A stretch of 64,000 nucleotides of DNA from Morinoia aosen (Eukaryota > Arthropoda > Malacostraca > Amphipoda > Talitridae), in NCBI GenBank assembly GCA_030386875.1, contig CM059579.1:14542484-14606483 (forward strand), written 5' to 3'. Of the stretch, positions 15,019 through 47,447 are shown one piece after another (position 1 is the first letter of the stretch; each line of letters opens with the position of its first letter). Below the pieces are notes generated by a model that saw only the letters and a list, made by a program, of their open reading frames with translations, was not told the DNA's origin and did not search any database. Made by a program: the position numbers and the translations under genes.

Positions 15019-15073
15019 ATGAACATAGAAATGTTATTAAGTGCAGCTGAATTTGTGGAGAGGAGAGATAGAG
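15019..15073 (+). CDS. MXD/Mad family repressor, coding exon 1 (Sin3-interaction domain)
   Basis: Encodes MNIEMLLSAAEFVERRDR, then the first base of the next codon before a strong donor G|GTGAGT. This matches the N-terminal Sin3-interaction domain of Max dimerization proteins (vertebrate MNIQMLLEAADYLERRE). That amphipathic helix binds PAH2 of Sin3 and recruits histone deacetylase to E-box genes, antagonising Myc; it acts in the nucleus as a Max heterodimer. The core pattern (MLL, AA, LER/VER) is kept. The start has A at -3 and is the first ATG in frame. The phase-1 intron matches exon 2 (47193), giving ERRDR-A-REHGYAALLP, which aligns without gaps to ERRER-EAEHGYASMLP. The EHGYA motif favours MXD over Mnt. 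The exact vertebrate paralogue (MXD1, MXI1, MXD3 or MXD4) cannot be assigned. Confidence 0.9.
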
Positions 15074-15253
15074 GTGAGTGCGCGTGAATATCTTGCTGCA
15101 TTAAGGGACTTTCCTTTGTTTGAGAGGCAGCTGATCAGCCTGACCTGCTCTTGGGTCAAAATGTATTACAACTCTTTGCTTTTAATAAACTTTAACTCTT
15201 TGGTGAAATTTTTTGTGCTTATTTTACTTCAGGAAGACAAGTGCCGCCTTTGA

Positions 15254-16116
15254 TGTGGTAGGATTTTTACATTTGTGCATCGCCTATTTTGCGCGTTTGT
15301 ATCGATTCTTGAAAGTCTATCGAACAACTTTAATATTCTAATCTAGCTTCAAAATTTTCATTCGCGCTAAAACTTCGAAAGTGTAGAGCTGTTTGTTTCT
15401 TTAGGAAATGCATGAATTATCATAGAGATGTTTTTCATGAAGGCATAATGAATATTCAAGGAATTTTTTATATTGATAGCAATATTCAATTAGAATTTGT
15501 AATACGGCATCCCTTTCCTACGCGACGTTTGCAATGTTCAATTTGTGTTTACGCATGCTAATAAATACGACCTAAAGTTCAGCAAAATATGTCCTCTGTT
15601 CAGCGGTCATATTTTAGATCTACGTAGCGAAGTATGAAATCCTGAACAGATTATATCCCATCCTGAGCTGCGTTTACTTCCCACTTCGGGTCCGTTAAAT
15701 TCCATTGATATTAAATAAAAAAGGCCTGTATGATTAATTTTCAAGGAAAGAACAAATTCCCTATCATTTTTGCAGTTCCTATTCGTTCTTATTTGTTTAA
15801 ATGATTCATGAATTCTCGGTGTATTCTGTAATTGCCATCCGCATTTATATTTTGAGTAGGTGAATAAATTTTCGATGTATTGTGCAGTTATGCATAGTTA
15901 CTCTTAAATAACGGGGATGATTGATTCTCGATGTATGTTGTAGTTGCTAACTAGGCGAGCTCGATTCACGTGACCGTATCGATTGCTGCACTCTAACACC
16001 ATGCCAGCAGGCGCTCCGCCGCTCGCTGCGACTTGTGTGCTTAGTTGCAAGTAACGGCCAAAAGCAAAGTAAGGGCGAGAAGCTAAGTAAGAGCATAAGA
16101 AAAACTTCATTCTGGT
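15254..16116. other. Intronic DNA, nothing recognised
   Basis: AT-rich intronic sequence with one CACGTG (15967-15972). No repeat or exon detected. Confidence 0.35.
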
Positions 16117-16670
16117 GAATAGGGTTTAATTTCAGGATCGGTGGGTCAAAATAAATGAAATAGCTCACCGATTCTAACCCAGTGAATCACTGGGTTAGAA
16201 TCAGTTAGCCATTTCATTTATTTTGACCCACCGATCCTGAAATTCTACCCTATTCACTGGGTTAGAATCGGTGAGCTATTTCATTTATTTTGACCCACCG
16301 ATCCTGAAATTCTACTCTATTCACTGGGTTAGAATCGGTGAGCTATTTCATTTATTTTGACCCACCGATCCTGAAATTCTACCCTATTCACTGGGTTAGA
16401 ATCGGTGAGCTATTTCATTTATTTTGACCCACCGATCCTAAAATTCTACTCTATTCACTGGGTTAGAATCGGTGAGCTATTTCTTTTATTTTGACCCACC
16501 GATCCTGAAATTCTACCCTATTATAGGGTAGAATTTCAGGAGAGGCTGATCGAAATGAATGTAGCTCTCAACTCCAGCATAGTGAATAGAGTAGAATTTT
16601 GGGATCGAAACAAGTGGAAAAGCTCACCAACTCCAGCCTAGTGAATAGGGTAGAATTTAAGGATCGCAAT
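16117..16670. repeat. 67-bp tandem array flanked by inverted units
   Basis: Direct units starting TTCACTGGGTTAGAATCGGT lie at 16253, 16320, 16387 and 16454 (exact 67-bp period). The left flank 16117-16183 is a unit in reverse orientation, meeting the first forward unit head-to-head at CCCAGTGAATCACTGGG (about 16179-16195). The right end forms CCTGAAATTCTACCCTATTA against TAGGGTAGAATTTCAGG. Two diverged reverse units follow (about 16570-16670). The whole could form long hairpins. Confidence 0.9.
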
Positions 16671-17569
16671 TGGTCGTATCGCAGTCAGCGTGGTAAACTC
16701 GGAACGAGGTGCAAGACTGAATGGCTCTGCCTTTTGCAGTGGTTAGAAGAACTGTAGTGCGGCAGCCCACCTGCTCTGATTTCGCCATCATTCAGTCCTC
16801 TAATTTTCGGCCAGATTTCGATCACTTGATAAGAGAAGTTGTGCATGTGGGTGTTTTGTGTAGCTATTATCTTACTGCTGCAGGCACTGACGTCAACTGC
16901 ACTTCTGACGCTTTCGATAGATAGGCGAGGTAGCTTGGAACAAGTCCTGGCTTCAACTTTACTTCTTAAAAAAGTTGAAAATTAAAGGCAGATCTAACTT
17001 CTTCCTGCACGGGGCGTGTTCAATCCTGAACTTAGTAGGATTAAGGTTCACTGAATTATTATTTCGGTAGTGCAAAATATCACAGACTCATACGTCAAAT
17101 ATGTTTCACCTCTAATTTTTTGTACGCGTTTTGAAATAGGATAAAGAAATGTTCATGTTTGGCACGTCCTTTTTCTGTTATAAAATGTGTCAGAAGTACA
17201 ATGATTTAAAAATTATCGTAGTTGAATTGGTAATGTAATCGTTAGCTCTAGAATAGATTTTTCATATGTACGGGATCATTACAAAATTAGGTTATTGCAC
17301 ACGGCAAAATTATGACTCGAGTGTACATCAGGGTTTCGTTCATTGAGGAGATATACGGCGCTGTGCAAGTATGAGCATAGAGAATCATTTATGCTGCTAG
17401 TCTGCTAAAAGAGCATCGGGCCTTTACAATCGGTGGTGGTTTGAGTATTCATTTATTATTAGTTTCTATTGCGCACGAATACTTCGTCGCGTTTTTCCGT
17501 GTAAATAACATAAATACAATATTGAACTGAGGAGTGTCGAAACCGCATCGAAGTGTTTCTCCGTTAGTA
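16671..17569. other. Intronic DNA, nothing recognised
   Basis: A + frame at 16721-16924 (67 codons) directly abuts the 67-bp array. It has no motif or splice support. Confidence 0.3.
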
Positions 17570-17735
17570 GAAGATGGACTGAACGATCATCGAATGAATT
17601 GGTGTAGACTGAATGTTCATTGTATGTATTGGTTGGGGCAGTATTTGACAGAATATTCATTGTGCGCACTGGTTGGGACAGCGGTGTACTGCACGTACAT
17701 TGCATGTACTGGCTGGGACAGCGCAGTTGCGCGGC
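17570..17735. repeat. Three degenerate 41-bp repeats
   Basis: TTCATTGTATGTATTGGTTG (17615), TTCATTGTGCGCACTGGTTG (17655) and TACATTGCATGTACTGGCTG (17696), each followed by GGRCAG. A weaker first unit may start near 17590. Confidence 0.65.
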
Positions 17736-18074
17736 TAAGAACGTGAGATGTTGCGCAAGTCCGCTAGACTCGACAGGTGCACACAGCGGGGCCACTTTCT
17801 ACTTCGCTGGCTGTCCTGCCGCTCCGTATCAGTTTTGCCGTTTGGCAATCTGTTCACGTCCGAGTGAGCCGCTTCTATGCACGTGTCTTTACGCGGCTCG
17901 CATTTTGAAAATCTTTATTTTTAAGTAGTGCTGGCTCCGAGGTACTGATGACGTTTCCTTGACGCGTGAAAGGAGCTACAAAAAAATGGATGAATTCAGA
18001 GGCATTTGAGTGTCCGACTATGTTGCTGTTCTCTATTGAAAATTTATTTGAATGCGATATGAGGATTGTCTTTA

Positions 18075-18152
18075 ATTCTTAACAGTTACTTTTTTCTTCA
18101 AATTCTTTACAGTTACTTTTTTCGTCAAATTCTTTACAGATACTTGTTTTTT
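18075..18152. repeat. Three 27-bp tandem repeats
   Basis: CAGTTACTTTTTTCTTCAAA, CAGTTACTTTTTTCGTCAAA and CAGATACTTGTTTTTTCATA begin at 18083, 18110 and 18137. Each is preceded by AATTCTTWA. Confidence 0.75.
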
Positions 18153-18841
18153 CATAGAAAATACTAACTCACAGTAGTCTCAATACGTTATTTTTAAACT
18201 AGCACGTCCCATTTCATAGGAACGCTGATAATAAAGATAAGAGGAATGATCTGTACGCGTGACTGAACTGAACATGAGTTGACTGTGCACTGCGGCCAGC
18301 TGAGCAAACTTGACGAGTCGAGGTACATTTCTACGTCCTCATAAATCTTTAGTGTTAATTTTTTTTTAAATTCGGAACATAGGGATTTCGACTAAAGAAT
18401 AATAAGCACAATCTGGTAGGAATACGTCTGGACTGCCAGTCCAGTTGCCTGAAGCGTGAAGTCTTTCCTATAGAAAGCGTATTGATCTGCGTGTCTTCGT
18501 ACAAAATTTCGCCGCGTCAGTCAATCTACATTGAGGATTGATGGTGCGCGGCCTGCACCCTCGTGCTTATACAAATATAATGACGTGTGATCATTTTATT
18601 TATTTATTCCTCTTCGGTAAATGTAGAAAATGAAGAACTCGCGTTACCAATTCATCAACCTGAGGAAAACTGGACACGTAACGAGGAAGAAAAGTATACG
18701 CTATTAGCTTTCGCAATCGCTATGAATAAATTTACGTTTGCATAGTAGATAGGTCGGTGAATTTAACCCACGTCTGGTTTGCGGAAAATGAAAACAAACC
18801 CGTAAGGTTCTTCATTAGCATTTCAAATAAGCTATTGTATT
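18153..18841. other. Intronic DNA, nothing recognised
   Basis: No repeat or coding signal detected between the 27-bp repeats and the 116-bp duplication. Confidence 0.3.
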
Positions 18842-19125
18842 TTTTCATTCAAATTCATAGATTTCAACATTAAATTTTTATTTCTTCATCCAAGTTCATC
18901 AATATGAGCATAGACGTTTTAATTCATCAATGAATTTCATCGATAATAGCCATTAGCCTATTATTTCTTAATTCAAATTCATCGATTAACCTTTGATTTC
19001 TTTTTTCAAGTTCATCAATATGAGCATAGACGTATTAATTCATAAATAAATTTCATCGATAATAGCCATTAGCCTATTATTACTCTATTCAAGTTCATCG
19101 ACGTAACCATTAGTTTAATGATGAC
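18842..19125. repeat. 116-bp tandem duplication with partial flanking units
   Basis: CAAGTTCATCAATATGAGCA begins at 18891 and 19007. Each is followed by TAGACGTWTTAATTCAT, TTTCATCGATAATAGCCATT and AGCCTATTATT. Shorter ATTCAAATTCATCGATT-type pieces flank both. Confidence 0.85.
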
Positions 19126-19380
19126 GCTGCCAGCGTCGGTTTCGCGTGCGTGCGAACGGAAGACTCAAAGTTCCCGCGCTGTCGCGCGATCGATGAACGG
19201 TCGATGCTGGCGTGTTTCAGCGGCCTCCTGCTGTTGGAGCGGGGCGGGCGCAGAGAAGGGGTGAACTTCCATTGATGCTTCCGCTGCTGCTTGTTTTCAC
19301 GCGCCCTTCAGCTTGCGCAGAATATCAAGCAACGCACGTGTGCGCTCTGTTTGACGTTCTTGTGCTTCCGAGACTGTTTT
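19126..19380. promoter_or_regulatory. CpG-rich island inside intron 1
   Basis: A sharp GC/CpG-rich block in AT-rich intron, with GGGGCGGGCGC (Sp/KLF-type GC box, near 19237), GCGCGATCGATGAACGGTCG and a CACGTG E-box (19335-19340). It lies 4.1 kb downstream of exon 1, so an alternative promoter or enhancer is possible. No exon with a clear donor could be assigned. Confidence 0.35.
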
Positions 19381-19619
19381 TTTATTGAAGTTAGTTGGGT
19401 GTGATAGTGTAAATGCAGATGGATTTATTTATTCTTTCTTTGAGCGTCGAGTAAGGTTTTTTATTATTGCGGCCTTTCTTTTGGATTCTCCTTAACGTGC
19501 ATTGTCGATAACGCAAAACGGTAGCCCCATGCCGTTAATTAATTTTTTCTATTGATGAATGGTTATTTTAAAAAATCAATGGAAAATAAAAGTGAGGCTT
19601 GGTACTTTATTCCTCGAGA

Positions 19620-19722
19620 ATGATCTTTCCAGGGGAAAGATAATTCCCCTCATAATTGTCTGTCCAGGGGGAAGACAATTCCCTTCATAATTTTCTGACC
19701 CGGGATAAAGGTAATTCCTTTG
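19620..19722. repeat. Three 35-bp repeats, each a small hairpin
   Basis: Units centred on CTTTCCAGGGGAAAG (from 19625), TGTCCAGGGGGAAGACA (from 19661) and GACCCGGGATAAAGG (from 19697). Each is followed by TAATTCCCYTCATAATT or a variant. The first two units contain self-complementary arms, such as TCTTTCC/GGGAAAGA. Confidence 0.7.
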
Positions 19723-22165
19723 CGCTGTCTGCAGTGAACGGAATTATCTATTAATGCATATACAGTAGGAGCGCCCCTAGGGGACATGTAGGCCACCTTA
19801 GCGGTTTTCACCGAAGTATATGCTCAAAGGTTATTCCCGTGTGTGTATTGGGGTGCACCTCAATGGTAACCCTAGCGACCTAGAACAGAATCAGCATTAC
19901 CTGTTGTAAGAGTCTGTTTCGGGTTTGGATTTGTAGCTAGGTAAGTCTTTCATTCCTTACTTATACTTTTTTCGTTGGGAGGCCGGCGTATTGAGCAACT
20001 GACCTCCTGTACGGGTGTCCGTTCAATCATTGTTTTCCCTTATTTTTGCTTCAGATATGTGTTTACGTCCTTTTACGCCTACGGTACGAGCTTTACCAAC
20101 CGAAAGACCCAAATTTTTCATTTGTATTGTGCCACTCAAACTTGTCTACCACTATCTCTGATCATCGTTTAACCGATGGAAAACGGTACTTAAACATCGG
20201 TTGTCGAAGTAATAATTTCGTGGAATTAAATCCTGTAGAACATGATCACTTTTTTACGTTTGCGAGATTGAGTGTTTTTGAACCAGTTCTCTTATTCAAG
20301 GAATAATGTTATCACTGTTCACTAAGGTATAATATTCAATTTGCATTAAAAAAGTCTGACGATGTGTTACTTTTATAAGTTCCTTTAAAAGGAACATATT
20401 GGAAATTAATTGTAAACTCAAAGCTTTTCAGTTTCCTCTTGCATTAACAAGTGGAGGGAGGCCTCTCATAACGACTCGCAAGAGAAAGCGACAGCACATC
20501 ACCAAGAGACTTATGAAATGAGTTGAGTTCAGAGCAAACGTTCAATAAGCAATTTAGATATTAGTAGAAATTTATGTGTGATTCAGTGCACTACACTTAA
20601 TTCCATTAAAGTTGTAGCGCATTGAATTATAGATAGCCATATATTTTTTATTTATGTAAGTTTAAAATTTTGCGATGGGACTGTCAGTTATTTGGAACAA
20701 AGTTTAGAAACAAACATTCAGATTTTATTCACATTGGGCATAAGGTAGATACATAGTAAAATAGCGGTTCATTTCGTTCATAGTACTAAACTAAGCGGCG
20801 AGGTCTATTACCAATTGAACGTTTCCAGCGTGCTTGCGAAATGTAAAATGAAAGCGCAATTGGAGAACATGGGTGGTTAGTGGGATAGGTCATTTGAGAA
20901 ATGTGTTTTTAAAGCCTTCCAAGAATGAGTGTTCGATTGTCCGTGTTGGGAGCAGGTAGTACGAGATGAGCTTGTTTTTTCCATTCTTTGTTTATCCTGT
21001 AGATTTTTTATTTTTAAGAATAGCCACTTGTTTTCACACAGATGGCAATTTGTGTTTGCTCATAGTGATGACTGAATGTTCCAGTATTTTATTACGTTAT
21101 TCTTAGTAGTACGTCTTGTGTGCATACTGTCTTCTGTGAAACACACCAATACTTGCTAATTTGTTTTATTTACGTGTGTTGCAATAGACGCTTTGCTTTT
21201 TTCCTTTTTAATTTGACCAAATTTTGTGGTGAAGTCAATGAAGCTGGTGCTAAGTCAAGTCAGTGGCTATTACGGGAACATTTCGTCACTGACGATCGTC
21301 GTATTTTGCCGTTCTCTGATATACTAACATAAATAATTATGCAATTTAATTTTCATGTATCATTAAAATTTCAGTTTTCTTATGAACGTCTGTCAAATAT
21401 GACCAAGGAATCGTAACTCTTTCCACGCATTACCTAGTCATGGGGGATTGTTTTGCAAGTGGAACTTGAATTTTTTCTGTATTTAATGGGAATAGAAAGC
21501 GCATACACGTTTCTCAAAGCACGAACGCACGCTTCTACCAACTTTTGTTATCAGGCAATTCGTAACTTGGTTCTTAGATTGTAGAATTTAACATCTAAGT
21601 TATAAATAAAATGTTGATTTATCATTCTTTAACGCAAGTCTGAGTGTTCGTGTTGGAATTAAATTTAACTGACGCTCGTCAGTAGCGCATTCTATTGTTC
21701 CTGAGCGTGATGCTTGCCAGTGCCAGGTATTTCGGAAGCTGGTACGCGTAGGTTCCTCGCGTGGGGCGGGCTTATAACAACGCTACTTAGCCGGCCGGTG
21801 AGCAATCGATTTTAGAGTAACCACCTGACAGGGTTTGTTAGTTGCGTCAGTAGAAAGGGTGGCAGCTCGCCTGCCATTGGGAACCGATTGCCTACTTCGT
21901 AATGAACCGCTCGTTTTTCTTCCCGGAATCATCATCATTCTGCCTCTTGATGAATCCGTAGCGTGTCATTCGGGGATCCCTCATTCTACTGCTTAATGAA
22001 CCACAAGCCTGCCGTGAGGGATTCATCGCTGTCACTAGCTTAACCTTTAACCTTCCGTTAGAAAATCAATATCCTACCACTAAATGAGCCCCCTAACCCT
22101 CCACTAGAGAACCCCAATTGTGTAGCTCTACATGACTGCTGGTGCTGCCGTCCACGCTGTCACGC
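19723..22165. other. Intronic DNA, nothing firmly recognised
   Basis: Contains a GC box next to TTATAAC (GGGGCGGGCTTATAAC, 21764-21779) and a TCAGT at 21847, which is weak promoter-like content without an assignable exon. Several short + frames have no motif. Confidence 0.3.
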
Positions 22166-23020
22166 GATGCGTTTGGTTGTCATGCTTCGTTTGGTTGTCG
22201 AGCTTCGTTTGGTTGTGCCGTGCTTCGTTTGGTTGTGTCGTGCTTCGTTTGGTTGTGTCGTGCTTCGTTTGGTTGTGTCGTGCTTCGTTTGGTTGTGTCG
22301 TGCTTCGTTTGGTTGTGTCGTGCTTCGTTTGGTTGTGTCGTGCTTCGTTTGGTTGTGTCGTGCTTCGTTTGGTTGTGTCTTGCTTCGTTTGGTTGTCATG
22401 CTTCGTTTGGTTGTCGAGCTTCGATTGGTTGTGTCGTGCTTCGTTTGGTTGTGTCGTGCTTCGTTTGGTTGTGTCGTGCTTCGTTTGGTTGTGTCGTGCT
22501 TCGTTTGGTTGTGTCGTGCTTCGTTTGGTTGTGTCGTGCTTCGTTTGGTTGTGTCGTGCTTCGTTTGGTTGTGTCGAGCTTCGTTTGGTTGTGTCGAGCT
22601 TCGTTTGGTTGTGTCGAGCTTCGTTTGGTTGTGTCGTGCTTCGTTTGGTTGTGTCGTGCTTCGTTTGGTTGTGTCGTGCTTCGTTTGGTTGTGTCGTGCT
22701 TCGTTTGGTTGTGTCGTGCTTCGTTTGGTTGCGTCGTGCTTCGTTTGGTTGCGTCGTGCTTCGTTCGTTTGGTTGTGTCGTGCTTCGTTCGTTTGGTTGT
22801 GTCGTGCTTCGTTCGTTTGGTTGTGTCGTGCTTCGTTCGTTTGGTTGTGTCGTGCTTCGTTCGTTTGGTTGTGTCGTGCTTCGTTCGTTTGGTTGTGTCG
22901 TGCTTCGTTCGTTTGGTTGTGTCGTGATTCGTTCGTTTGGTTGTGTCGTGATTCGTTCGTTTGGTTGTGTCGTGATTCGTTCGTATGGTTGTGTCGTGAT
23001 TCGTTCGTATGGTTGTGTCG
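22166..23020. repeat. 20/24-bp minisatellite, left part
   Basis: The unit GTGTCGTGCTTCGTTTGGTT (20 bp) repeats to about 22760. A 24-bp derivative with an extra TTCG (GCTTCGTTCGTTTGG) follows to 23020. CATGCTTCGTTTGGTTGTCG at 22181 recurs at 22397, implying a 216-bp block duplication inside the array. GCTTCG changes to GATTCG in the last units. Open frames on both strands reflect a stop-free unit. Confidence 0.97.
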
Positions 23021-23379
23021 CCCCTCAGGGGGATACAACTATTGTATCTACGGGAATTAGTGCTCCCAGGGGGACAATGTGAGGGCCCGAGCGAAAGGTT
23101 AGGTAGGCTTTCTTTTTATTAAAATAGAATAGGTTTTTGTTGTGTTACGGACCATCTTTTTTCGGTTCACTGCTGTCCTGTTTTTCACCGCCTACTACTT
23201 TCTTCTTCAACTTTTTCTTGTTTCATGAACTTCTTTCTTAGCTTTCTGTTTCTGTGCCCTTTCTGCATAGATTCCACGTTCCCTTAGCTCCATACTAAAT
23301 GGTGCCTTCTTCCTTCCTCTCTTTACATCTCATTTGTTGAGGATAGGGAGGCTTAAACTAACTAATAAGCTAATAAACT
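23021..23379 (+). mobile_element. Dispersed 360-bp element, copy 3 (intact, inside satellite)
   Basis: Full length: palindromic head CCCCTCAGGGGGATACAACT, AATTAGTGCTCCCAGGGGGA, GTTAGGTAGGCTTTC, body, AGGCTTAAACTAACTAATAA tail. It belongs to the short subfamily (GTGCCCTTTCTGCATAGATT, lacking the roughly 22-bp AGGGGATCTTGTGTGGGAAC segment), like the copies at 39723, 41829 and 55380. Satellite resumes immediately after it. TGGTTGTGTCG lies on both sides (23010-23020 and 23380-23390), a candidate target duplication, though the repeat itself supplies that word. Confidence 0.9.
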
Positions 23380-23490
23380 TGGTTGTGTCGTGATTCGTTC
23401 GTTTGGTTGTGTCGTGCTTCGTTTGTTTGGTTGTGTCGTGCTTCGTTTGGTTGTGTCGTGCTTCGTTTGGTTGTCGTGCTTCGTTTAGCG
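23380..23490. repeat. 20/24-bp minisatellite, right part
   Basis: About five further units of the same satellite, starting with the 24-bp GATTCGTTCG form. They were separated from the main array by insertion of the dispersed element. Confidence 0.93.
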
Positions 23491-24610
23491 AGCTGCGTGG
23501 GGCCGTGTCGGGGACAGTGTCAGGGCGGGACTGCGAGGTTTTGTGAACAGTAATGACTGTGATATTTGAAAAGAAATGAGGGGACATTGCCGGAAGTGTG
23601 GTTTTGTATCGTGAAGAATCACTTGGAATACTCGCGTTACATTTTGAATTTCGACGCGATGTTGTAGCAGTGCGGAGTGCGAGACACGCAGAAACAGCTT
23701 TGCCTGTAGGACTTCTTTGATTTGAAGGTTGACCAGCTTTCTGATGCTTGGTAGCTTCACTATTGAAATCTCATAAATTGATGGCATGTTGTTTCTGGTA
23801 CCTCTGTTATTTTTAATGTTCTGCATCTTGAAGCGGGTTCAGTGTATCATCGGGATTTTCCTGTATTCTTTGTCATCGTGATAGTACTGTATAATCGTTA
23901 TGTTTATCGAGGGATTTTTGCGTCATACTTGAGATAATTCTGTATCACTACGATAGTTTTGTATTTGGTATAAAATTCATATGTATATTTATTCATTTAT
24001 GTGTACTTTAAATAGACCTTAATATAGAGTATACATTAATTTACGTGCACTGTGAATTATATTTAGTGTACAGTATACACTCATATATACTGTATTGGGA
24101 TTTTTCCCGTTTCGGGTGCAGTATCATGTATGCAGCCTAAATATTTATGTCTAGAATAGATGATGTTTTTGTGTTTAGTGCACCTAGCCAAACAAACTCT
24201 GCTGATAGGATCTTAGTGTGTATTAACATTCTTTAGTGAAAATTGGTATTGCGATTTGCGTACAAATTTCAAACTCATCGATAAAACTTTCTTACGCACA
24301 TTGATTAGTGTCAGGAATGGCGGTATTGATGTGATTCCTGAGTGAACTCACTGATACCGACGGCTTTTTATAGCCAACCCTGAGAAAAAAAATTCTATTT
24401 ATTTTAAATTTATTGTAAATTAGGAATGCACAATGAACATTTGGAGTGCGTTGTAGCGGTGCCATTCGAAGCACATGCTCGCAAATCGGGAGCTCAAGCC
24501 GCTCCTGGGCTTGTGCCTGGAGGTAGCCTGTCGACGTGTTGGAGTATGTACACTTCGCGCTGTGCTGCCTGCCTCTCACGTCTGCTGCTACGGCGTCTAG
24601 CTGCTGCTCT
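23491..24610. other. Intronic DNA, no gene supported
   Basis: 24430-24660 is GC-richer and open in frames on both strands. Neither frame has a recognised domain or a good splice pair, so I leave it unassigned. Confidence 0.3.
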
Positions 24611-24925
24611 AGTATCCCACTTCCACTTGGACACCCCACCGCTACTTGCTACTTTGGCATCCCAATACAAATCTAACACCCGACTGCTACTTAGAGATCC
24701 CATTGGCATTTTAACATCTCACTGCCACTCGAGCATCCTACTGCCACTTCATTATCTCGGTGCCACTCGATCAAAACTCTGTCACTTGAGCATCCCGGTG
24801 CCACTGGATCATCTTGGTGCTACTTGAGCATCTCGGTGCCACTGGATTATCCCGATGCCACTGGATTATCTCGGTACCACTTGAGCATTCAGTTGTCATT
24901 GGGGTATCCCACTGCTTGTCTTGAG
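24611..24925. repeat. Degenerate array of about 18-bp units
   Basis: Variants of ATCCCGGTGCCACTGGATC (for example near 24796, 24832, 24849 and 24866, and CATCTCACTGCCACTCGAG near 24714) follow each other with indels. Individual units are diverged. Confidence 0.6.
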
Positions 24926-24936
24926 AGCCACTAGAG

Positions 24937-32685: not shown

Positions 32686-32826
32686 GTTTGTTGGCATTTC
32701 AACTGAAGACGCGTCGTTCTAATTGTTAAGTAAAGCCCAAAAATAGAAAACAGTGGTCAAGTCCGTCGTTGTGGTCCGACGTCGTCTCCTTTAAAGCCTT
32801 GCTGTGTCCTGTCCTCTGTTATTCCG

Positions 32827-35661: not shown

Positions 35662-37872
35662 TTGAGCTCGTTTGCAATGCTTCATTGTTTATATTACGCA
35701 TTTGTGCTCGTTTGCAATGGTTCATTGTTTATATTACGCATTTGTGCTCGTTTGCAATGGTTCATTGTTTATATTACGCATTTGTGCTCGTTTGCAATGG
35801 TTCATTGTTTATATTACGCATATGTGCTCGTTTGCAATGGTTCATTGTTTATATTACGCATTTGTGTTCGTTTGCAATGGTTCAATGTTTATATGACGCA
35901 TTTGTGCTCGTTTGCAATGGTTCATTGTTTATGTTACGCATATGTGCTTGTTTGCAATGGTTCATTGTTTATATTAGGCATTTGTGTTCGTTTGCAATGG
36001 TTCATTGTTTATATTACCCATTTGTGTTCGTTTGCAATGGTTCATTGTTTATATTACGCATTTGTGCTCGTTTGCAATGGTTCATTGTTTATATTACGCA
36101 TTCGTGCTCGTTTGCAATGGTTCATTGTTTATATTACGCATTTGTGCTCGTTTGCAATGGTTCATTGTTTATATTACGCATTTGTGCTCGTTTGCAATGG
36201 TGCATTGTTTATATTACGCATATGTGCTCGTTTGCAATGGTTCATTGTTTATATTACGCATTTGTGCTCGTTTGCAATGGTTCATTTTTTATATTACGCA
36301 TTTGTGCTCGTTTGCAATGGTTCATTGTTTACTTTACGCATTTGTGCTCGTTTGCAATGGTTCATTGTTTATATTACGCATTTGTGCTCGTTTGCAATGG
36401 TTCATTGTTTATATTACGCATTTGTGCTCGTTTGCAATGGTTCATTGTTTATATTACGCATTTGTGCTTGTTTGCAATGGTTCATTGTTTATATTACGCA
36501 TATGTGCTCGTTTGCAATGGTTCATTGTTTATATTACGCATTTGTGTTCGTTTGCAATGGTTCGTTGTTTATATTACGCATTTGTGCTCGTTTGCAATGG
36601 TTCATTGTTTATATTACGCATTTGTGCTCGTTTGCAATGGTTCATTGTTTATATTACGCATTTGTGCTCGTTTGCAATGGTTCATTGTTTATATTACGCA
36701 TTCGTGCTCGTTTGCAATGGTTCATTGTTTATATTACGCATTTGTGCTCGTTTGCAATGGTTCATTGTTTATATTACGCATTTGTGCTCGTTTGCAATGG
36801 TTCATTGTTTATATTACGCATATGTGCTCGTTTGCAATGGTTCATTGTTTATATTACGCATTTGTGTTCGTTTGCAATGGTTCGTTGTTTATATTACGCA
36901 TTTGTGTTCGTTTGCAATGGTTCATTGTTTATATTACGCATTTGTGCTCGTTTGCAATGGTTCATTGTTTATATTACGCATATGTGCTCGTTTGCAATGG
37001 TTCATTGTTTATATTACGCATTTGTGTTCGTTTGCAATGGTTCATTGTTTATATTACGCATTTGTGCTCGTTTGCAATGGTTCGTTGTTTATATTACGCA
37101 TTTGTGCTCGTTTGCAATGGTTCATTGTTTATATTACGCATTTGTGCTCGTTTGCAATGGTTCATTGTTTATATTACGCATATGTGTTCGTTTGCAATGG
37201 TTCATTGTTTATATTACGCATTTGTGCTCGTTTGCAATGGTTCATTGTTTATATTACGCATTTGTGTTCGTTTGCAATGGTTCATTGTTTATATTACGCA
37301 TTTGTGCTCGTTTGCAATGGTGCATTGTTTATATTACGCATATGTGCTCGTTTGCAATGGTTCATTGTTTATATTACGCATTTGTGCTCGTTTGCAATGG
37401 TGCATTGTTTATATTACGCATATGTGCTCGTTTGCAATGGTTCATTGTTTATATTACGCATATGTGCTCGTTTGCAATGGTTCATTGTTTATATTACGCA
37501 TTTGTGCTCGTTTGCAATGGTTCATTGTTTATATTACGCATTTGTGCTCGTTTGCAATGGTTCTTTGTTTATATTACGCATTTGTGCTCGTTTGCAATGG
37601 TTCATTGTTTATATTACGCATTTGTGCTCGTTTGCAATGGTTCATTGTTTATATTACGCATATGTTCTCGTTTGCAATGGTTCATTGTTTATATTACGCA
37701 TTTGTGCTCGTTTGCAATGGTTCTTTGTTTATATTACGCATTTGTGCTCGTTTGCAATGGTTCATTGTTTATATTACGCATTTGTGCTCGTTTGCAATGG
37801 TTCATTGTTTATATTACGCATATGTTCTCGTTTGCAATGGTTCATTGTTTATATTACGCATTTGTGCTCGTT
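35662..37872. repeat. 40-bp minisatellite, 55 units without indels
   Basis: The unit is TTTGTGCTCGTTTGCAATGG followed by TTCATTGTTTATATTACGCA. Every unit from 35701 to 37860 is exactly 40 bp; only substitutions occur (TTTGTG/TATGTG, GCTCG/GTTCG, TTCATT/TGCATT/TTCGTT/TTCTTT). Higher-order copies: 37541-37700 and 37701-37860 are identical 160-bp blocks, and variant patterns recur at 320-bp (36501/36821) and 600-bp (36101/36701) offsets. All three + frames are open across the array, which argues against real coding. Confidence 0.98.
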
Positions 37873-39722
37873 TACTATAGTTTACTACCTTTCGTTTATA
37901 CTACCTCTCACACTTCTTTCAACTACGGTGTTCACATCATAAAGGTAAATTTCAAAACGGTGTTTTCATTTCATTATCTTTTGGCATGTGAATGCATGAC
38001 TATGTTCACATGTGTCAAAATTGCAAATTATTGATTTTGAACGATTTTTTAATAGTATTACAGCCATTTGAAATCGTTAAATGTCCAATAATATTATGTC
38101 AAAATAAAAACAGTAAAAGTTTGTCTGAATTCTAATCACCGCTTGTTAAGTGGAACTTACGCTGTGAAATTTTTCACCTACTTAATCTTAACTACGATTA
38201 TGATTCTTGTACAACTAGTTGAAGCTCATGTATACTACTTGGTAGACGACATGTTTGCATTTTTATTGCCCTTCTAGTGACGTTTTCCGTATGCTCAGTA
38301 TTTTTTGATTATATTTTTGTAAATCTGTGGCTTAAGTTACTACTTTCGTCTGTGTAAAAGTGCAACTATCGTCTTTAGTTAATGAACTACAAACAGTACG
38401 TTTAGTGGAAGCTAGATGATTCCGTTTGATCTGGAAAGTGGACGATTGTAATGAAGTTGAACACAAGAAGCACATCCATTCTTTTGAACACACCATGCCG
38501 CTGCACATTGAGGGTAGTCGGCGTATAACCTGCATTATCTCAACGTTTCCTGCGAATGGTTAAACTGAAGTTCAATATTCAATTAAAATGTAAACTCGCT
38601 TGTATCAAGCTATACTGAAAATGGCAAACATTAACTTGATCGTGCCTTCATTTACCTTTCATTAAATATTTGTAAAAATTGAGTTAGTGACTATAGGTCG
38701 GTTAGCAGCATTATGAAAATCCTGCGTGACCACCGGTGGGTCCCTTCGCAGGAAACGTTAGCTCAATCTCAGTCCTGGCATCGAAATCTCGACTTTAAAA
38801 TCAGTTTAAAATTCAGAGAAATTTTACTAACAATTTGAGCGCAAATAAATTTCTTTGACTCGAGATGAAATCGTCATATTATATTTATTTGGTAATTCAT
38901 AGCATACCTCATTGAAACGAATTGGAAATTTGTTGAAACCAACTTACTAAGTTTGGCGTACACACGTAAGGTTCTGTCGTTATTTCTAATACAGCAAGCG
39001 GCCGCTTGTGTCGGTCTCAGTTTTTGTTGGAGTCCATTTAACTTGAGATTTTTTGCGTCCTTTCTTTCCTCGCGTCTTGTTCCCTCCTAACCACAGGGCG
39101 TACGCCTCGCTCCCGAAAGCGTTCATATGGCGACGCTCATTTCCTCGTTGCAAAGGTCACTGACTGAGCAATTTTGAGCGGCTTTGTTGGGAGCGCAGCC
39201 ATGACGCTACGCCGGTCGTCGGCCCGAGCCTCCTAGGGTAGACCGCGGATAAAGAACCTATTTTTTGTAATTGCGATAATTTCCTTCCGATAGTGAATAG
39301 GCTTTCGATAGGCTTGCAATGCATTGAAGCCACATTGGTTGGCACTTGAGCTGGAAAAGAACCTTCTACACTAAAAAGAAGCTCGGAGGTAGTTAATATA
39401 CGCGTGGCCACTCTTGCCTAGCCGTTGGGCCGCTTGCTTGATTTTGGCGCCAACTCGCTGGCGCGCTCGCTGCTGCCTTTGTTCCTGTGAGGAGTGTGGA
39501 GCCCCGCGCCTGTCATATTCTCCGACTGCTGCTGCTCGGCTATGTGCATGTTTCAATGTTTCGAATAATCAAAAACAGTTGGCTCCCTTCTTCAATAATT
39601 TGGGGGCTGTGTATGTCGAATGATTAAAAAAATAAATTAGTTCCCTTCATTTGAGTTCGAAAGAAGGTTATTTGTATTAGTAAATCCAGAAGTTGGTAAT
39701 CTTCTTATTTGCTACGCCTATA
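37873..39722. other. Intronic DNA, no gene supported
   Basis: 39410-39560 is GC-rich and open on both strands without a recognised motif. The rest is AT-rich and unremarkable. Confidence 0.3.
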
Positions 39723-40085
39723 CCCCTCAGGGGGATACCACTATTGTATCTATGGGAATTAGCGCTCCCAGGGGGACTAAGTAAGGGCTTGAGCTAAAGG
39801 TTAGGTAGGCTTTATTTTTGTTGAAATAGAATAGGATTTTATTTTGTTACGGACCATCTTTTTTCGGTTCACTGCTGTCCTGTTTTTCAGCACCTCCAAC
39901 TTTCTTCTTCAACTTTGATCTTGTTTCATGAACTTCTTTCTCATCTTACTGTTTCTGTGCCCTTTCTGCATAGATTCCACGTTCCCTTAACTCCATACTA
40001 AATGGTGCCTTCTTCTTTCCTCTCTTTGGATCGCCTTTGTTGCGGATAGGGAGGCTTAAACTAACTAATAATCTAATCTAATCTT
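39723..40085 (+). mobile_element. Dispersed 360-bp element, copy 7 (best intact)
   Basis: Head CCCCTCAGGGGGATACCACT, GAATTAGCGCTCCCAGGGGG, then GTTAGGTAGGCTTTA, TTACGGACCATCTTTTTTCG, GTCCTGTTTTTCAGCACCTC, GTGCCCTTTCTGCATAGATT (short subfamily), TACTAAATGGTGCC and AGGCTTAAACTAACTAATAA, followed by a (TCTAA)n tail. It closely resembles copy 3, so this subfamily is probably the youngest. Confidence 0.9.
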
Positions 40086-40224
40086 GCTACGCCTATTTTC
40101 CCTGCAGTTGCTGGAAGAGCTGCCATCTGTGCTGCTGCGGATGTTACTGCCTTGTTTGATGGTTTTATGCTACAAGCGATCTTTCTTGCACCGCTTAGAT
40201 TGCTACAGTTCAATTCTGCTACAT

Positions 40225-40422
40225 CTTGCCAGAACTTGGAAAAAACGTACTACTTGTTTCATTTTTCGGATGAGCTTTCGTTCTGTTGATTGCGCTGGCA
40301 TGGCCCTGCGCTACTCCATTAATCTTGCCAGAACTTGGAAAAACGTGGCACTTGTTTCATTTCACGGATGTACTTTCGTTGTGTTGCTGCTTGCGACCCA
40401 AGTGCTACTCCAGCTGCTGCTG
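40225..40422. repeat. 99-bp tandem duplication
   Basis: CTTGCCAGAACTTGGAAAAA begins at 40225 and 40324. Each is followed by CGT, ACTTGTTTCATTT, CGGATGWRCTTTCGTT. The period is a multiple of three and a + frame stays open through it (40084-40461). The following 40400-40680 segment is open on both strands and ends at a GTATGT donor-like site, but in phase 0 and without a known domain. Confidence 0.7.
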
Positions 40423-40719
40423 TCGCAGCTGCAGCTGATGAGGCTGCCAGGAGTTTATTGATTCTGGCCCCAAGTCCATGGGATGGCTCAGTTGGAGTGG
40501 CCGATGGCATGAACGAGGCGCCAAAAGAGGAAGTGACGCCTGGCCGTCATTCTTTGCTTTCCTCCCTCCGGAACTCGGAGAAGGGACGTGCGCCGCGTCC
40601 ACTTCTGCCCACACAAAGACTTTCGCTTTCCCTAGAAAACCAAAAGGATGACATCGTTGGTGCTCACCGTACCATCTATGTATGTCGTTTCTGAAAATTC
40701 TGAGGCACATGAACACCGA

Positions 40720-41091
40720 AGGTTAGGTTTGGTTCGAGAAACTTGATGAAATTGCTCGTTTTTCATATTCTCTCCTCTCTTCGTGGCTATCATCATGAAT
40801 TAATTTTTTGGATATTTTCACCGCGTAATGCAATTAAGACGAAAAAGGTGCTATTATTCTGCAACCCTGAGTATTAGAGAAAAAATATTTCTTGCTGTAT
40901 TCCTACTATCTCCTCGCCATTATTTTTCCTCGGTATTAGGTCGTACCATCATGTCTCGGTGGACTTTCTGTATTTTTGGGCGGTGCACAAAGACGCTGTC
41001 GGGTGTTGAAGGAAGGATGTTTAGACAAGCAAATGAGGCCACATGCTCACGTGGCTGCTGCTGCTGCTGCCGGCAAACGTTAGGATTGATT
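40720..41091. other. Intronic DNA, nothing recognised
   Basis: Short open + frame (40828-41100) with a (GCT)n run near 41055 and no motif. Confidence 0.3.
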
Positions 41092-41325
41092 GCTCAGTGA
41101 AAGTCGTCGGGCTCATGCCTTGCATCTTTCACAGACGTCTTACTAATACTATTGGTTTTGGTGGTATGCTGAGGGAAAGTCACACTCATGCCTTGCATCT
41201 TTCACAGACGTCTTTCTAATACTATTGGTTTTGGTGGTATGCTCAGTGAAAGTCGCACTCATGCATTGCATCTTTCATAGCGGGCAATTTACGTCTCACC
41301 TATACTATTGGTTTTGGTGGTACTT
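41092..41325. repeat. Three 73-76-bp tandem repeats
   Basis: GCTCAGTGAAAGTC-like starts at 41092, 41168 and 41241. Each is followed by CTCATGCMTTGCATCTTTCA, GACGTCT (first two units) and ACTATTGGTTTTGGTGGTA. The third unit has an insertion around GCGGGCAATTTACG. Confidence 0.88.
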
Positions 41326-41365
41326 CTCTCGAAAAATTTGCTGCCTCCTTCCCAAACACCGAGAG

Positions 41366-41615
41366 TAGTTTTTTTTGTTAGACTATCTTTTTTTTCATTC
41401 ACTGCGGTTCTTTAATTTCAGCATGTATTGATTTTTTAGTATATCTTGTTTCTTAAATGTTTGTCACTCATGCTGTTTTTATGCGCAAAGCCTAGGAACA
41501 CAATGTGCATGGATTCTCAATGCCTTAATTTCATCATGAATGGTGCCTCCTCTCTTTGTCCCTTGGGAGCTTCTTGGTTGGGACTAGGGAGGCTTGAACT
41601 AACTTGTAACCTTGT
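41366..41615 (+). mobile_element. Dispersed 360-bp element, copy 8 (head-truncated, diverged)
   Basis: TTTTTTGTTAGACTATCTTT, TTCATTCACTGCGGTTC, TTTTTATGCGC, TGTGCATGGATTCTC, CATGAATGGTGCC, and AGGGAGGCTTGAACTAACTT at the end. Confidence 0.72.
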
Positions 41616-41828
41616 TTAACCCATTCACTCTCGGTTATTTGTTTTAAAAAAATTGAAACTGATTGCATATATTACTTGTTTGTAAGGATAAGTCTAGGAT
41701 ACTTGGGAAAAATAGGTAAAAATTTCTCACATTCGTAGGTTAGGTTACAGGCCCTGGGATTTTTTGTCCCATCGGTACTTTATGAAGGCATCATGCATCC
41801 TACTGGGTTTATTGAAAATCTATGGACC

Positions 41829-42102
41829 CTCCCTCCTTTTGTTGAAGTAGAATTTGTTTTTGTTACGGACCATCTTTTTTTCGGTTCACTGCTGTCCTGT
41901 TTTTAGTACCTCTGACTTTCTTACTTTCTTCTTCAACTTTTATCTTATTTCATGCAGTTCATTCTCAACTTACTGTTTCTATGCCCCTTCTGCATAGATT
42001 CCACATTTTCTCATCTCCATACCAAATGATGCCTTCCTCCTTTCTTTCTTTGGAACGCCGTTGTTGCGTTAAAGGAGGCTCAAAAACTTACATCTAAACC
42101 AA
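41829..42102 (+). mobile_element. Dispersed 360-bp element, copy 9 (head-truncated, short subfamily)
   Basis: CCCTCCTTTTGTTGAAGTAG, TTACGGACCATCTTTTTTTC, GTCCTGTTTTTAGTACCTCT, ATGCCCCTTCTGCATAGATT, and AGGAGGCTCAAAAACTTACA at the end. Confidence 0.82.
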
Positions 42103-42752
42103 TATAGTAGCTGTCCTTTGTGAACCCGCTCAGTTTCCCTGATAAAAAGTAGTGCACATATAAGCTGTACTTGCACGACTGGCCAGCATCAGGGAATCAT
42201 TAGCATGATTGCGTTGTAAAGAACAGGATCACGAGGTGAAAATGTTTTAGTTTGTGTTTGATAAATTTACCCTAATCGACACAGTTTCGTTATTGAGTTT
42301 TTACAAGTACCTTTCTTTCGTGTTGCTCTCAGAGATGCAGCAACGACGTTCGGGCTGCTGTGGTCGATGTCGTGGCGCATTAGATGTCCCAAAGAGCCCT
42401 GGGGCTGTAAATTGATCTTCAGATGTAGTTCTGATATTGAAGGGAAGACAGAAGCGTATCAGCTCAAAATACGGGCAAAACTCGTCTCGGTTGGAACGAT
42501 AGCAACCAGTAGGGGCCCCTGGACATGTTTGCTTGGCTGTTGAGCGTTGTTTGTTACTGGCGGACCATGAGGGCAAAAATTTAAAGGTTACGAAGGGAAT
42601 TCGCTCTCGCGTTTTCCATTTTCCTTCTTTGTGCGTTGGCGCTCCAGTTGCAGGGAGCGGGGTGCCGGTGCCCTGGTCTGTGATGGTGGTGATGGCTGTG
42701 GTGGTTATGGTGGCGGGGTTACTACGCAGTTGTACTGCAACTGATGAAGTGG
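42103..42752. other. Intronic DNA, no gene supported
   Basis: The minus frame 42576-42301 (91 codons, Cys/Pro-rich) ends at AAAG|GTACTT and looks mildly exon-like. It lies antisense within the MXD intron and shows no recognised domain. Confidence 0.2.
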
Positions 42753-43670
42753 ATTGCTGCTGCTGCTTGAAGTTTAGTGTATGTTGCTGCTTGCTCTTTA
42801 GTGTATGTTGCTGCTTGCCCTTTAGTGTATGTTGCTGCTTGCTCTTTAGTGTGTTGCTGCTTGCTCCTTAGTGCGTGTTGCTGCTTGCTCTTTAGTGTGT
42901 TGCTGCTTGCTCCTTAGTGCGTGTTGCTGCTTGCTCCTTAGTGCGTGTTGCTGCTTGCTCCTTAGTGCGTGTTGCTGCTTGCTCTTTAGTGTGTTGCTGC
43001 TTGCTCCTTAGTGCGTGTTGCTGCTTGCTCCTTAGTGCGTGTTGCTGCTTGCTCCTTAGTGCGTGTTGCTGCTTGCTCCTTAGTGCGTGTTGCTGCTTGC
43101 TCCTTAGTGCGTGTTGCTGCTTGCTCTTTAGTGTGTTGCTGCTTGCTCCTTAGTGCGTGTTGCTGCTTGCTCCTTAGTGCGTGTTGCTGCTTGCTCCTTA
43201 GTGCGTGTTGCTGCTTGCTCCTTAGTGCGTGTTGCTGCTTGCTCCTTAGTGCGTGTTGCTGCTTGCTCCTTAGTGCGTGTTGCTGCTTGCTCCTTAGTGC
43301 GTGTTGCTGCTTGCTCCTTAGTGCGTGTTGCTGCTTGCTCCTTAGTGCGTGTTGCTGCTTGCTCCTTAGTGCGTGTTGCTGCTTGCTCCTTAGAGCGTGT
43401 TGCTGCTTGCTCCTTAGTGCGTGTTGCTGCTTGCTCCTTAGTGCGTGTTGCTGCTTGCTCCTTAGTGCGTGTTGCTGCTTGCTCCTTAGTGCGTGTTGCT
43501 GCTTGCTCCTTAGTGCGTGTTGCTGCTTGCTCCTTAGTGCGTGTTGCTGCTTGTTCTTGAGTGCGTGTTGCTGCTTGCTCCTTAGTGCGTGTTGCTGCTG
43601 GCTCCTTAGTGCGTGTTGCTGCTGGCTCCTTAGTGCGTGTTGCTGCTTGCTCCTTAGTGCGTGTTGCTGT
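42753..43670. repeat. 24-bp minisatellite, about 38 units
   Basis: The unit is GTGTTGCTGCTTGCTCCTTA plus GTGC. Early units carry TTTAGTGTATG and several 22-bp units (TTTAGTGTGTTGCTGC). The rest is highly uniform, with GCTGGCTCC variants near the right end. The period is a multiple of three and no frame has a stop, giving RVAACSLV or CCCLLLSA repeats on paper. Not treated as a gene. Confidence 0.96.
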
Positions 43671-45605
43671 TGTATTGGGGCTCTACTCCTATTGGTATTA
43701 TGTGCTTCATGTTGTAGTTATCACTCTCACTGCTGCATCACCAGATGTTAGGCGCTCTATTTTATGTTACGTCTTCTTTCTTTTTACTCCACCGCAGTGC
43801 TGCCATTCGTTATCTTCCTATAATGTCATTCCACCGCTGCGGCATCATTTGTCGTGATCCTATTATTTATCATTGATTTTTAAGGTCGGATATAACAGTA
43901 TATAACTTTCCAATGTACTTATTACATCAATCGTTAAGTATGAACATTTCATAATCAGCTAACGTTTGTTTCTTTTCATTATTATGTTCAGTTAGCTGCC
44001 ACCAGTGTCTAATGAGAAATTTTGAATGGTTCAGATTTTTGTCAGAATGGTAGCGTGGATTCATTTCTTACTTATCCCACATTCTTTCAAAACAAATGAA
44101 AATTAATACGCTTGGATGTTAATTACAATTTACTACTAAACAACTAATCTGACGTACATGACATTTCCAATAGATACTTAATGATCTCATTCCCGCTATG
44201 ACCTGATAGAAAAGCAGTTAAGTGCGGTTTTATAAACTGAGTGGATAACCTTAGCTTTATGAGAGTTGCCGCAGATTTATGACAGGAGCGAAAAAGTGCA
44301 CCTTGAACACACAGTGATAGGGACGCCATTATTCGGGGTGGTCGGGCACTTCAGCGCAGACATGGTCGTCTGAATTGGTAACTTTCTTTGTCTATGCGTG
44401 ATTTACATGCGAAAATCCGACTCTGATATAGTAGGAAGTATGGCAGCCTGCGCCCAGATAGGCGAGAGCAGAGAGTGCTGAGCAACGCATTCCTGGCTTT
44501 GATGAGGTCTGGCGACCCACTGCCTACCTTCATCCATGCCAGGCGTTTGCAGGACAACTGCTTGAATCGAACGTTCTCGTTTGAACATTTTTTTTTGAAA
44601 TATCAAATGTCAAATTTATAATAACCTACATAGAAATGTGCCTATATATTAATAATCAGTACCTATAAATGAATTTCTATAATGAAATGATCCCCGAGCA
44701 TCAATTAATAGCATTATAAATAGAGGAAATAGAAATCTGAAGATTTCTTGAATGGCGTTTGCTGGAGACTCAAAGCTTGCTTCGATGTAACGCGTTCGTG
44801 ACAGCGACGCTGCCGTCATGTGAAGAAACTCCATGCAGAGGGAAGGCTTGCCAAATATTCGTAAAATGAGCATAGTCGAAATCGTAGAAAACTCGTGACG
44901 AATTAAATCTTCAAGTACGATCGGCGCAGTTCTTTTTGAAGATTCGAAGTGAATACGCAGGTCTATACCAACATTTGTTCCATTACGCCGAAATATTCTT
45001 GAATAGGCGCAAGAAAAGGTGCATCAAATCATTGGCGCTCTGCACTTATTGATGCTCTACTCTTTTTGGTGCTCAGCTAATAATTAAAGCGTACGGTTAC
45101 GGTAAGCGATCAACACAGTCATGGCATCGCTTTCAAGCACCGCCCAAAAAACTCGCTTGTTTGTACCCTATTAAAATAAGAATAAGAACTCTGTTCACAC
45201 CCCACATTTGACAATAAAAACAGCTCACGACTGCTGCTCAATTATCAGGTGCTCTGTAGCAACATGTAATCGTTATCTACATTTTACCACGGGCTGTCTA
45301 GTCGCCACCCAAAGAAATTCGAATCTGCTGTGCCAGCTTGTGTCTCGAGCGCGGTGGAGGCACATGAAGCCAGCCCTTTGTTGTTGACTGTTTGTGGCGT
45401 TGCGTGTCCTGGGAATTTCTTCTTATTCGCTCGTCACGCGTGATGTTTCAGTTCTGTTGCTACTGTGTCTCATCAACCGCTCGGTTGTCGTTGTCGCATT
45501 GAATCTGATGCTCATTTCTTCCTGTTTAAAGTTGAAATACTCTATTTTAATACGTGCAGGGCTCTATTAATAAACTAAAAGGTGCCTCATTTATGTTTTA
45601 TGCTC
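43671..45605. other. Intronic DNA, nothing recognised
   Basis: Several short minus frames (44144-44873) without motifs. No repeats detected. Confidence 0.3.
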
Positions 45606-45834
45606 TTAACCCTTTAACGCCCACATTTTAATACTCATATTACCGTTATCACAACCACTATCACTAAACTGACACTGGCATTAGGTAGTCACTGTTATCA
45701 AGATGTGGAAGGAACTACCACTCGGCAGTGAAGTTCAAAGGACACATTAGTGAACAAATTGAATAAGAAATATAATATGTTATTGTTATTTTTGAAAGAG
45801 GACCGTACAGTCCACTTCGGCGTTAAAGGGTTAA
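45606..45834. mobile_element. piggyBac-type MITE, copy 2
   Basis: TTAA at 45606-45609 and 45831-45834 flanks a 221-bp element with ends CCCTTTAACGCC and GGCGTTAAAGGG, a perfect 12-bp terminal inverted repeat. The interior matches the copy at 10631-10835 but has about 24 bp extra (TAGTCACTGTTATCAAGATG). Confidence 0.93.
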
Positions 45835-45994
45835 TGGTCTATAAGGTATTATATATGATAAGAGTTAAGAGTTTGGCCTTGCTATCACGTTTTACAAGTC
45901 ATATTTGAGCGTGCTGCTGTTTTATTGTTGGTTAGGAAAACGTTTGTCAGGTTAGGCATGTGTGTTTGTTTTCGGACGAAACTCCTGAATTGGT

Positions 45995-46136
45995 CCTTGT
46001 TCTTATGCGCTCGAGCACACCTTAGCATAGATTCCGCGTTCCCTCATCCCCATCCTAAATGGGGCCTTCATCCTTTCTCTATTTGGAACGCCTTTGTTGC
46101 GCTTTGGGAGTCTTAAACTAACATTTAATCAAATCT
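45995..46136 (+). mobile_element. Dispersed 360-bp element, copy 10 (3' part only)
   Basis: TTCTTATGCGCTCGAGCACA, TAGCATAGATTCCGCGTTCC, ATCCTAAATGGGGCC, GGAACGCCTTTGTTGCG, and GGAGTCTTAAACTAACATTT with an AATCAAATCT tail. Confidence 0.75.
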
Positions 46137-46489
46137 ACCATTACGAGTGTGTTTATCTCGTCTAATACAAGAATAGAGTCAGGGTAGCCTGACCACAGTT
46201 TGTCTGGGGCGTCAACAAGGACTGTCTTGTTGAAAATTGTGACTGCGTTCTTGAAGCCATAAAAATGGTTTTGGTAAAGCTCTTCCCACATTATCGTGTG
46301 CTTCTGCGGAGTGATGGTGAGCGCGTGGCTGCCGATGTTTTTTATATTCGTTCTTAATCTACATTTTTGACGATCTGATTTCGCTTCATGGAGTGATGTA
46401 TGGAATTAATGTGCATTTTTATGTCCCTATACATTCTATTGACTAACTAGTTAAGGTTTTACATTTTTTAAGTGTCCACGCATCACACA
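46137..46489. other. Intronic DNA, nothing recognised
   Basis: No repeat or coding signal between copies 10 and 11. Confidence 0.3.
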
Positions 46490-46872
46490 CCTCTCAGGAG
46501 GATACAACGATTGTGTCTACGGGTGTTGGCACTTCAGGGGGAAAATTTGAGGTTCCAACCTTATAGGTTTTCACAACGTAGGATTTCTTTTCGCTGAAAT
46601 ACAATATTTTTGTTTTGTTGAAAAACATTTTTTTCGGTTCACTCCTGTCCTGTTTCCCAGCACCTATGACGTTCTTCTTCAACTATTATCTCGTTTCCGT
46701 GCTTTCCTTTTGAACTCACTGTTCTATGCGCACGGGATCCTATGCGGGAACATACCTTGTGCATAAATTTCGGGTTCCCTCAACTTCATACTAAACGGTG
46801 CCTGCATCCTTCCTCACTTGGAACATCTTTGTTGTGGTAAAGAGTCTGAAACTAACTTATCAATCAACCACG
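46490..46872 (+). mobile_element. Dispersed 360-bp element, copy 11 (full length)
   Basis: Head CCTCTCAGGAGGATACAACG, TTGTGTCTACGGG, CACTTCAGGGGGAAAATTTG, body with TTCGGTTCACTCCTGTCCTG, GGGATCCTATGCGGGAACAT (long subfamily), TTGTGCATAAATTTC, TACTAAACGGTGCC, and GTCTGAAACTAACTTATCAA. Confidence 0.87.
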
Positions 46873-47010
46873 CATAACGTTATACGTGAGTACTGCGCAA
46901 GAAAGTGTTCGCAAACAGGTTTCTTCTACGGATGCAGGCTCATTTGTACATAGTATTTTCTTCGAAACTCAGACACTGAGATTATCAATCTGTGCGTGTA
47001 ATTCTCAAGT

Positions 47011-47190
47011 GCTCCTTTACTTTGGTGCACATGACTACTATGTTTAAGATTGCCCTTGATACTTCATTACTTACTAATTTCTGATAGGACTTTCTTTTAG
47101 GACCTTTACTTCTGATGCACATGACTGCTATGTTTAAGATTACCCTTCACAATTGGTTACTTACAAATTTGTAATAGGACTTTCCCTTGC
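47011..47190 (+). repeat. 90-bp duplication of the exon-2 3' splice region
   Basis: Unit 1 (47011-47100) and unit 2 (47101-47190) share CCTTTACTT, TGCACATGACTRCTATG, TTTAAGATTRCCCTT, TTACTTACWAATTT and ATAGGACTTTC. Unit 2 runs into the true acceptor CCCTTGCAG|CG at 47192. Unit 1 ends in an equally good acceptor TTCTTTTAG|GA at 47100. Confidence 0.88.
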
Positions 47191-47192
47191 AG

Positions 47193-47433
47193 CGCGGGAG
47201 CACGGCTACGCGGCGTTGCTGCCGTTGACGTCAGCAGACGGAGTTGTGCCCCCGCGACTCAACCAGTTATCCACCAGTCACCACAACCATCATAGAGGAA
47301 AGAGTGCCGATGCTATTAACTCTCATCATCACCATCATAGTCATCATAGTCATCACCACAATAGTCATCATCATCACCACCATCGCTCTGCCACGAGGCG
47401 GCCTCGGGCGCGTCCCAAGCACGTCTCCAACAG
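47193..47433 (+). CDS. MXD/Mad family repressor, coding exon 2 (His-rich linker before bHLH)
   Basis: Phase-1 acceptor (TTTCCCTTGCAG|CG) and phase-2 donor (AACAG|GTTAGTG). The exon begins [A]REHGYAALLP, the counterpart of EAEHGYASMLP that directly follows the Sin3-binding helix in MXD proteins. It then runs through a non-conserved linker with about 20 histidines in under 40 residues (alternating CAT/CAC codons broken by Ser and Asn), and ends in a basic stretch RRPRARPKHVSN. In vertebrate MXDs the equivalent linker is short and leads into the bHLH basic region (NNRSSHNELEKHRR), so the next exon should start there. No such exon is found in the rest of the window. The basic stretch may act as a nuclear localisation signal (inference). 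Confidence 0.88.
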
Positions 47434-47447
47434 GTTAGTGTTCCGCT

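Follow-up and report, generated by a model that had tools for sequence, protein, structure and literature searches.

The window analyzed here, a 64,000-bp stretch of the Morinoia aosen genome (C24:14542484-14606483, forward strand; the genome searched comprises 1.99 Gb in 29 contigs), carries the first two coding exons of a probable Mxd/Mad repressor gene whose next three exons lie to the right of the window. The coding part of exon 1 (55 nt, 15019..15073, plus strand) opens with an ATG at 15019 and encodes a Sin3-interaction helix, MNIEMLLSAAEFVERRDR, plus the first base of the next codon; it exits in phase 1 at a gtgagt donor at 15074. Intron 1 (15074..47192, plus strand, gtgagt...cag) spans 32,119 bp to the cag acceptor at 47190-47192 (context ccttgcag), where exon 2 (241 nt, 47193..47433, plus strand) begins with (A)REHGYAALLP, continues into a histidine-rich linker, and leaves in phase 2 through a gttagt donor. 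These exon positions, the splice signals of intron 1, and a matching-phase join across it had been proposed in a first-pass annotation, and all are found in the sequence. The phase 1 junction, with the letters G|CG CGG GAG CAC, completes an alanine codon (G|CG) between the Sin3-interaction domain (SID) and EHGYA, giving the product MNIEMLLSAAEFVERRDR-A-REHGYAALLP; the peptide of the two joined exons is MNIEMLLSAAEFVERRDRAREHGYAALLP.

Gene layout and family assignment

The downstream exons were located from C24 matches to a typed MXD-like basic helix-loop-helix (bHLH)-zipper query, which gave four genome matches at E ≤10. The best is at C24 14684137 (E 5.2e-12, 77% identical), and the others are on C13 (E 0.024), at C24 14687697 (E 0.72), and on C18 (E 7.6). 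Both C24 matches are on the plus strand, 94 and 98 kb past exon 2, and they define exon 4 (bHLH, 115 nt, C24:14684139-14684253, plus strand) and exon 5 (zipper, 232 nt, C24:14687709-14687940, plus strand). A pattern search between the window and the bHLH exon supplied exon 3, a 30-nt microexon coding for STHNELEKNR (C24:14618052-14618081, plus strand). The five exons lie in order on one strand and form an open frame of 224 residues, separated by four GT...AG introns of 32,119, 28,135, 66,057, and 3,455 bp in phases 1, 2, 2, and 0; the start of intron 2 occupies 47434..64000 (plus strand) and continues beyond the window's right edge. The first-pass annotation had made its assignment depend on the nearest downstream plus-strand bHLH exon being MXD-like, and exons 3 to 5 indeed encode a complete Mad-type bHLH-zipper in phases that fit those of exons 1 and 2. 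Exon 5 exits in phase 1, and at least one further coding exon is therefore expected.

The family match is close. A Pfam scan of the 224-residue product reports HLH (6.9e-14) and no other domain above the curated cut-off, and a search of PDB returns 13 distinct sequences at E ≤0.01. The first of these is the Mad bHLH-zipper 1nlw_A (E 3.7e-25, 92 bits); Myc chains come next at 29 and 28 bits, and Max chains trail at 19.6 to 21.8 bits. Identity over the bHLH-zipper is 51/79 to Mad 1nlw_A versus 21/79 to Myc 1nkp_A. The alignment to 1nlw_A is gapless through the zipper (residues 98 to 176), such that a leucine zipper is present after helix 2. The structural match, the Pfam HLH domain, and the five-exon frame all support the MXD/Mad identity suggested at first pass, and we estimate a probability of about 0.94 that the locus is the 5' end of an Mxd/Mad gene and the sole Mxd-like locus found in the genome. 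Apart from its long, repeat-bearing introns, it is a new and ordinary member of a known family, with Mad genes already listed in insects.

Both N-terminal segments match Mad1 more closely than chance can explain. Against the Mad1 helix, the 18-residue helix reaches a BLOSUM62 score of 66, compared with 27 at the next best place among six frames of 264 kb and 36 at best in 40 Markov-resampled 132-kb sequences. EHGYAALLP, scored against nine Mad1 letters, reaches 44, compared with 29 at the next best place in the 264 kb and 36 in the resampled sequences. In a phmmer search of the solved structures with the joined 45-residue peptide, the top match is Mad1 1pd7_B (E 8.1e-4), aligned without a gap over 22 residues, 14 of them identical; three other matches in that search have E values of 1.1 to 1.5. 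Searched against the whole genome, the joined peptide gives one match at E ≤0.001, which is exon 2, exon 1 being too short to appear. Leu12, Ala15, and Ala16 of Mxd1 are described as touching Sin3 PAH2, with Glu23 giving an electrostatic contact (PMC6295471, in the part available). Read off the 1pd7_B alignment and in our own numbering, the equivalents of Leu12, Ala15, and Ala16 are kept and Glu23 is replaced by Asp.

Weighing the assignment

Several points weigh against an Mxd/Mad gene assembled from these five exons. The helix match taken alone reaches only E 8.1e-4, and 4 of its 22 residues are at or past the junction, 2 of these 4 being identical. The zipper exon by itself is a weak genome match (E 0.72), and the C-terminal exon was not found in pattern, frame, or genome searches. 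Specifically, pattern scans as far as C24:14806483 did not locate a last coding exon; a filtered scan of acceptor-led phase 1 frames to 165,000 (in coordinates continued from the window) listed 22, none like the MXD tail; and a typed vertebrate-like C-terminal tail has a single, unconvincing genome match (E 1.88, on C13). The five-exon model and its predicted splicing are read from genomic sequence.

The shortness of the first two exons (55 and 241 bp) raises the prospect that the helix and EHGYA matches are fortuitous or belong to a pseudogene. We consider this the most improbable of the alternatives, at close to nil, because the score controls speak against a chance match and the splice sites and phases are intact across all five exons. 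An Mnt paralogue, likewise a Sin3-binding bHLH-zipper repressor like the Mxd proteins, is scarcely more credible. Among solved relatives of the C24 bHLH, Mad is far ahead of every other, and a separate bHLH exon on C13 resembles Mnt by motif; together these disfavor an Mnt identity. In favor of Mnt, Drosophila dMnt is given as the single MXD/MNT paralogue (PMC7358075, in the part available), and a planthopper bHLH survey places NlMad in family Mnt in its Table 2, yet in Mad in its Table 3 (PMC5126786).

A different reading retains exons 2 to 5 as an Mxd gene and takes the exon at 15019 as one of several alternative first exons, such that forms with and without the Sin3 helix would be made. The exon 1/exon 2 junction coincides with the place of a first-exon switch cited from the available part of PMC8984142. 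Nothing points directly to a further first exon, though no search aimed at one was made, and the exon at 15019 is in itself a strong Mad1-type helix by the score control. We regard alternative first exons as unlikely, at odds of roughly one in five, well ahead of the other two alternatives.

Surroundings of the first two exons

Directly before the start codon, 14787..15018 (plus strand) is a G+C-richer stretch that we presume to be the promoter-proximal region and 5' untranslated region; G+C content is 51% in 14787-15100 versus 25% in 14500-14786. The linker of exon 2 has 22 histidines among 79 residues and includes a 24-bp tandem repeat at 47325-47384. A 90-bp tandem duplication at 47014-47184 adjoins exon 2, so that the polypyrimidine tract and AG of that exon occur twice. 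The upstream copy was considered as an acceptor (AG ending at 47100) and rejected; its in-phase reading meets a stop after 24 residues, and the acceptor at 47190-47192 is thus preferred.

Proposed function and Max-network partners

The Mxd/Mad repressors are natural opponents of Myc. Here, exon 1 encodes the amphipathic Sin3-interaction helix and exon 2 the EHGYA segment with the histidine-rich linker. The basic region opens in exon 3, the remainder of the helix-loop-helix comes from exon 4, and exon 5 supplies the leucine zipper together with a serine-rich tail. From what is known of the family, the bHLH-zipper most likely pairs with Max on E-boxes, and the first helix would recruit the Sin3-HDAC corepressor, silencing Myc targets and so opposing Myc. 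Expression of the gene, binding to Max and Sin3, and repression are predicted on these grounds.

Candidate partners are encoded elsewhere in the genome. Two Sin3 PAH exons above the Pfam cut-off lie 6 kb apart on C18. A typed MAX fragment has six genome matches, four of them on C16, and two of those four have an internal stop in the aligned stretch. One Max match occurs twice with the same scores and spacing, 704 kb apart (C16:53258754-53260047 and C16:53962989-53964282), reflecting either a recent duplication or an assembly artifact. The separate bHLH exon at C13:51075270-51075413 (minus strand), which we take to be Mnt-like from its motif, has Max chains as its best matches in PDB, with Mad just 14th of 15; it aligns with the C24 bHLH over 27 residues only, 15 of which are identical.

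Intron length and minisatellites

The first-pass annotation described intron 1 as a 32-kb, minisatellite-filled intron. The length is correct, but "filled" is not, as tandem arrays cover only 22.5% of it. Its arrays include a 20-bp minisatellite of 40 copies (22170..23005), a 22-bp minisatellite of 54 copies (32831..34020), a 40-bp minisatellite of 55 copies (35658..37873), and a 24-bp minisatellite of 38 copies (42774..43669). Array cover is 5.8% in intron 2, 2.7% in intron 3, 11.7% in window positions 1-14700, 11.5% in the stretch following exon 5, and 3.6% in the 30 kb preceding the window, so that arrays are denser in intron 1 than around it. Four very long frames without a stop lie over minisatellites and might be taken for genes in error (22062-23115, 32730-34254, 35569-38031, and 42989-43748); among the frames of at least 90 amino acids (aa) that were listed, all 15 of at least 200 aa are over minisatellites. 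A tRNA scan and an Rfam scan of the window (at gathering thresholds) found nothing.

Intron 1 is not the longest in the gene, with intron 3 being twice its length. In the sections available of a bHLH survey, introns within bHLH motifs average about 1.1 to 15.6 kb in ten species, and the longest intron of the Nilaparvata lugens bHLH genes is 1,155,031 bp (PMC5126786). At 32 kb, intron 1 is long relative to those averages and well below the N. lugens extreme, and such lengths are presumably normal for this genome.

We note a strand asymmetry along the gene. With arrays masked, introns 1 to 4 have a plus-strand A-minus-T skew between -0.12 and -0.15; beyond exon 5, as far as 264 kb, it is +0.035, and the change to positive values comes near 154 kb (coordinates continued from the window). 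This change agrees with plus-strand transcription ending near 154 kb; weighing against such a reading, the masked skew is also negative over the 30 kb that precede the window (-0.11) and in window positions 1-14700 (-0.05). Among arrays of at least 120 bp, the sense strand has more T than A in 21 of 22 within introns 1 to 3 versus 9 of 24 outside the gene (294 kb; Fisher P = 3.4e-5, for one gene and tested after the pattern had been seen), and a skew of -0.45 or below is present in 6/22 versus 1/24, respectively; the skew of an array depends in part on that of the sequence around it. It is a speculative and rather doubtful proposition that minisatellites in long introns of this genome are oriented, with a sense-strand excess of T relative to A and some arrays almost without A. 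If true, transcription would shape array growth, or arrays in the opposite orientation would be removed for disturbing splicing or ending transcription early.

Comparison with known Mxd and Mad genes

Vertebrate MXD1 (Mad1) has a short lead before the helix methionine and an EHGYA segment. The gene described here shares with it the Sin3-interaction helix, the Mad-type bHLH-zipper, and EHGYA; it differs in that the start methionine is directly at the helix and in its histidine-rich linker. Mnt is a related Max-network repressor, and the separate locus on C13 is Mnt-like by motif.

The layout, with the SID alone in exon 1 and the junction before EHGYA, resembles that of human MXI1 (MXD2), in which a SID-encoding first exon is joined just before CEHGYA (PMC2441969, from primer and probe sequences). 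Between the human exon 1/2 primer and the exon 0/2 probe, the letters in common begin only at AG-TGT-GAA-CAT, and by our reading of those letters the MXI1 junction is at most two bases from the junction here (PMC2441969). MXI1 differs in having a known alternative exon 0; no search for such an exon was made here.

Among insects, a survey table gives Mad in 5 of 13 species (N. lugens, A. pisum, N. vitripennis, T. castaneum, and L. decemlineata) and lists none for H. saltator, A. mellifera, B. mori, D. melanogaster, A. aegypti, A. gambiae, C. quinquefasciatus, and P. humanus, the eight including all four flies of the survey (PMC5126786); in an older table, likewise, only a subset of the insects have Mad (PMC3527142). 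NlMad, ApMad, and the other insect Mad genes resemble the present one in being listed besides Mnt and Max (PMC5126786). The amphipod locus adds a clean Mxd gene model from a species whose genome is very large, in which automated annotation may split a gene whose coding exons of 30 to 241 bp are spread over 130 kb, and it provides a data point on which lineages retained Myc antagonists and which lost them.
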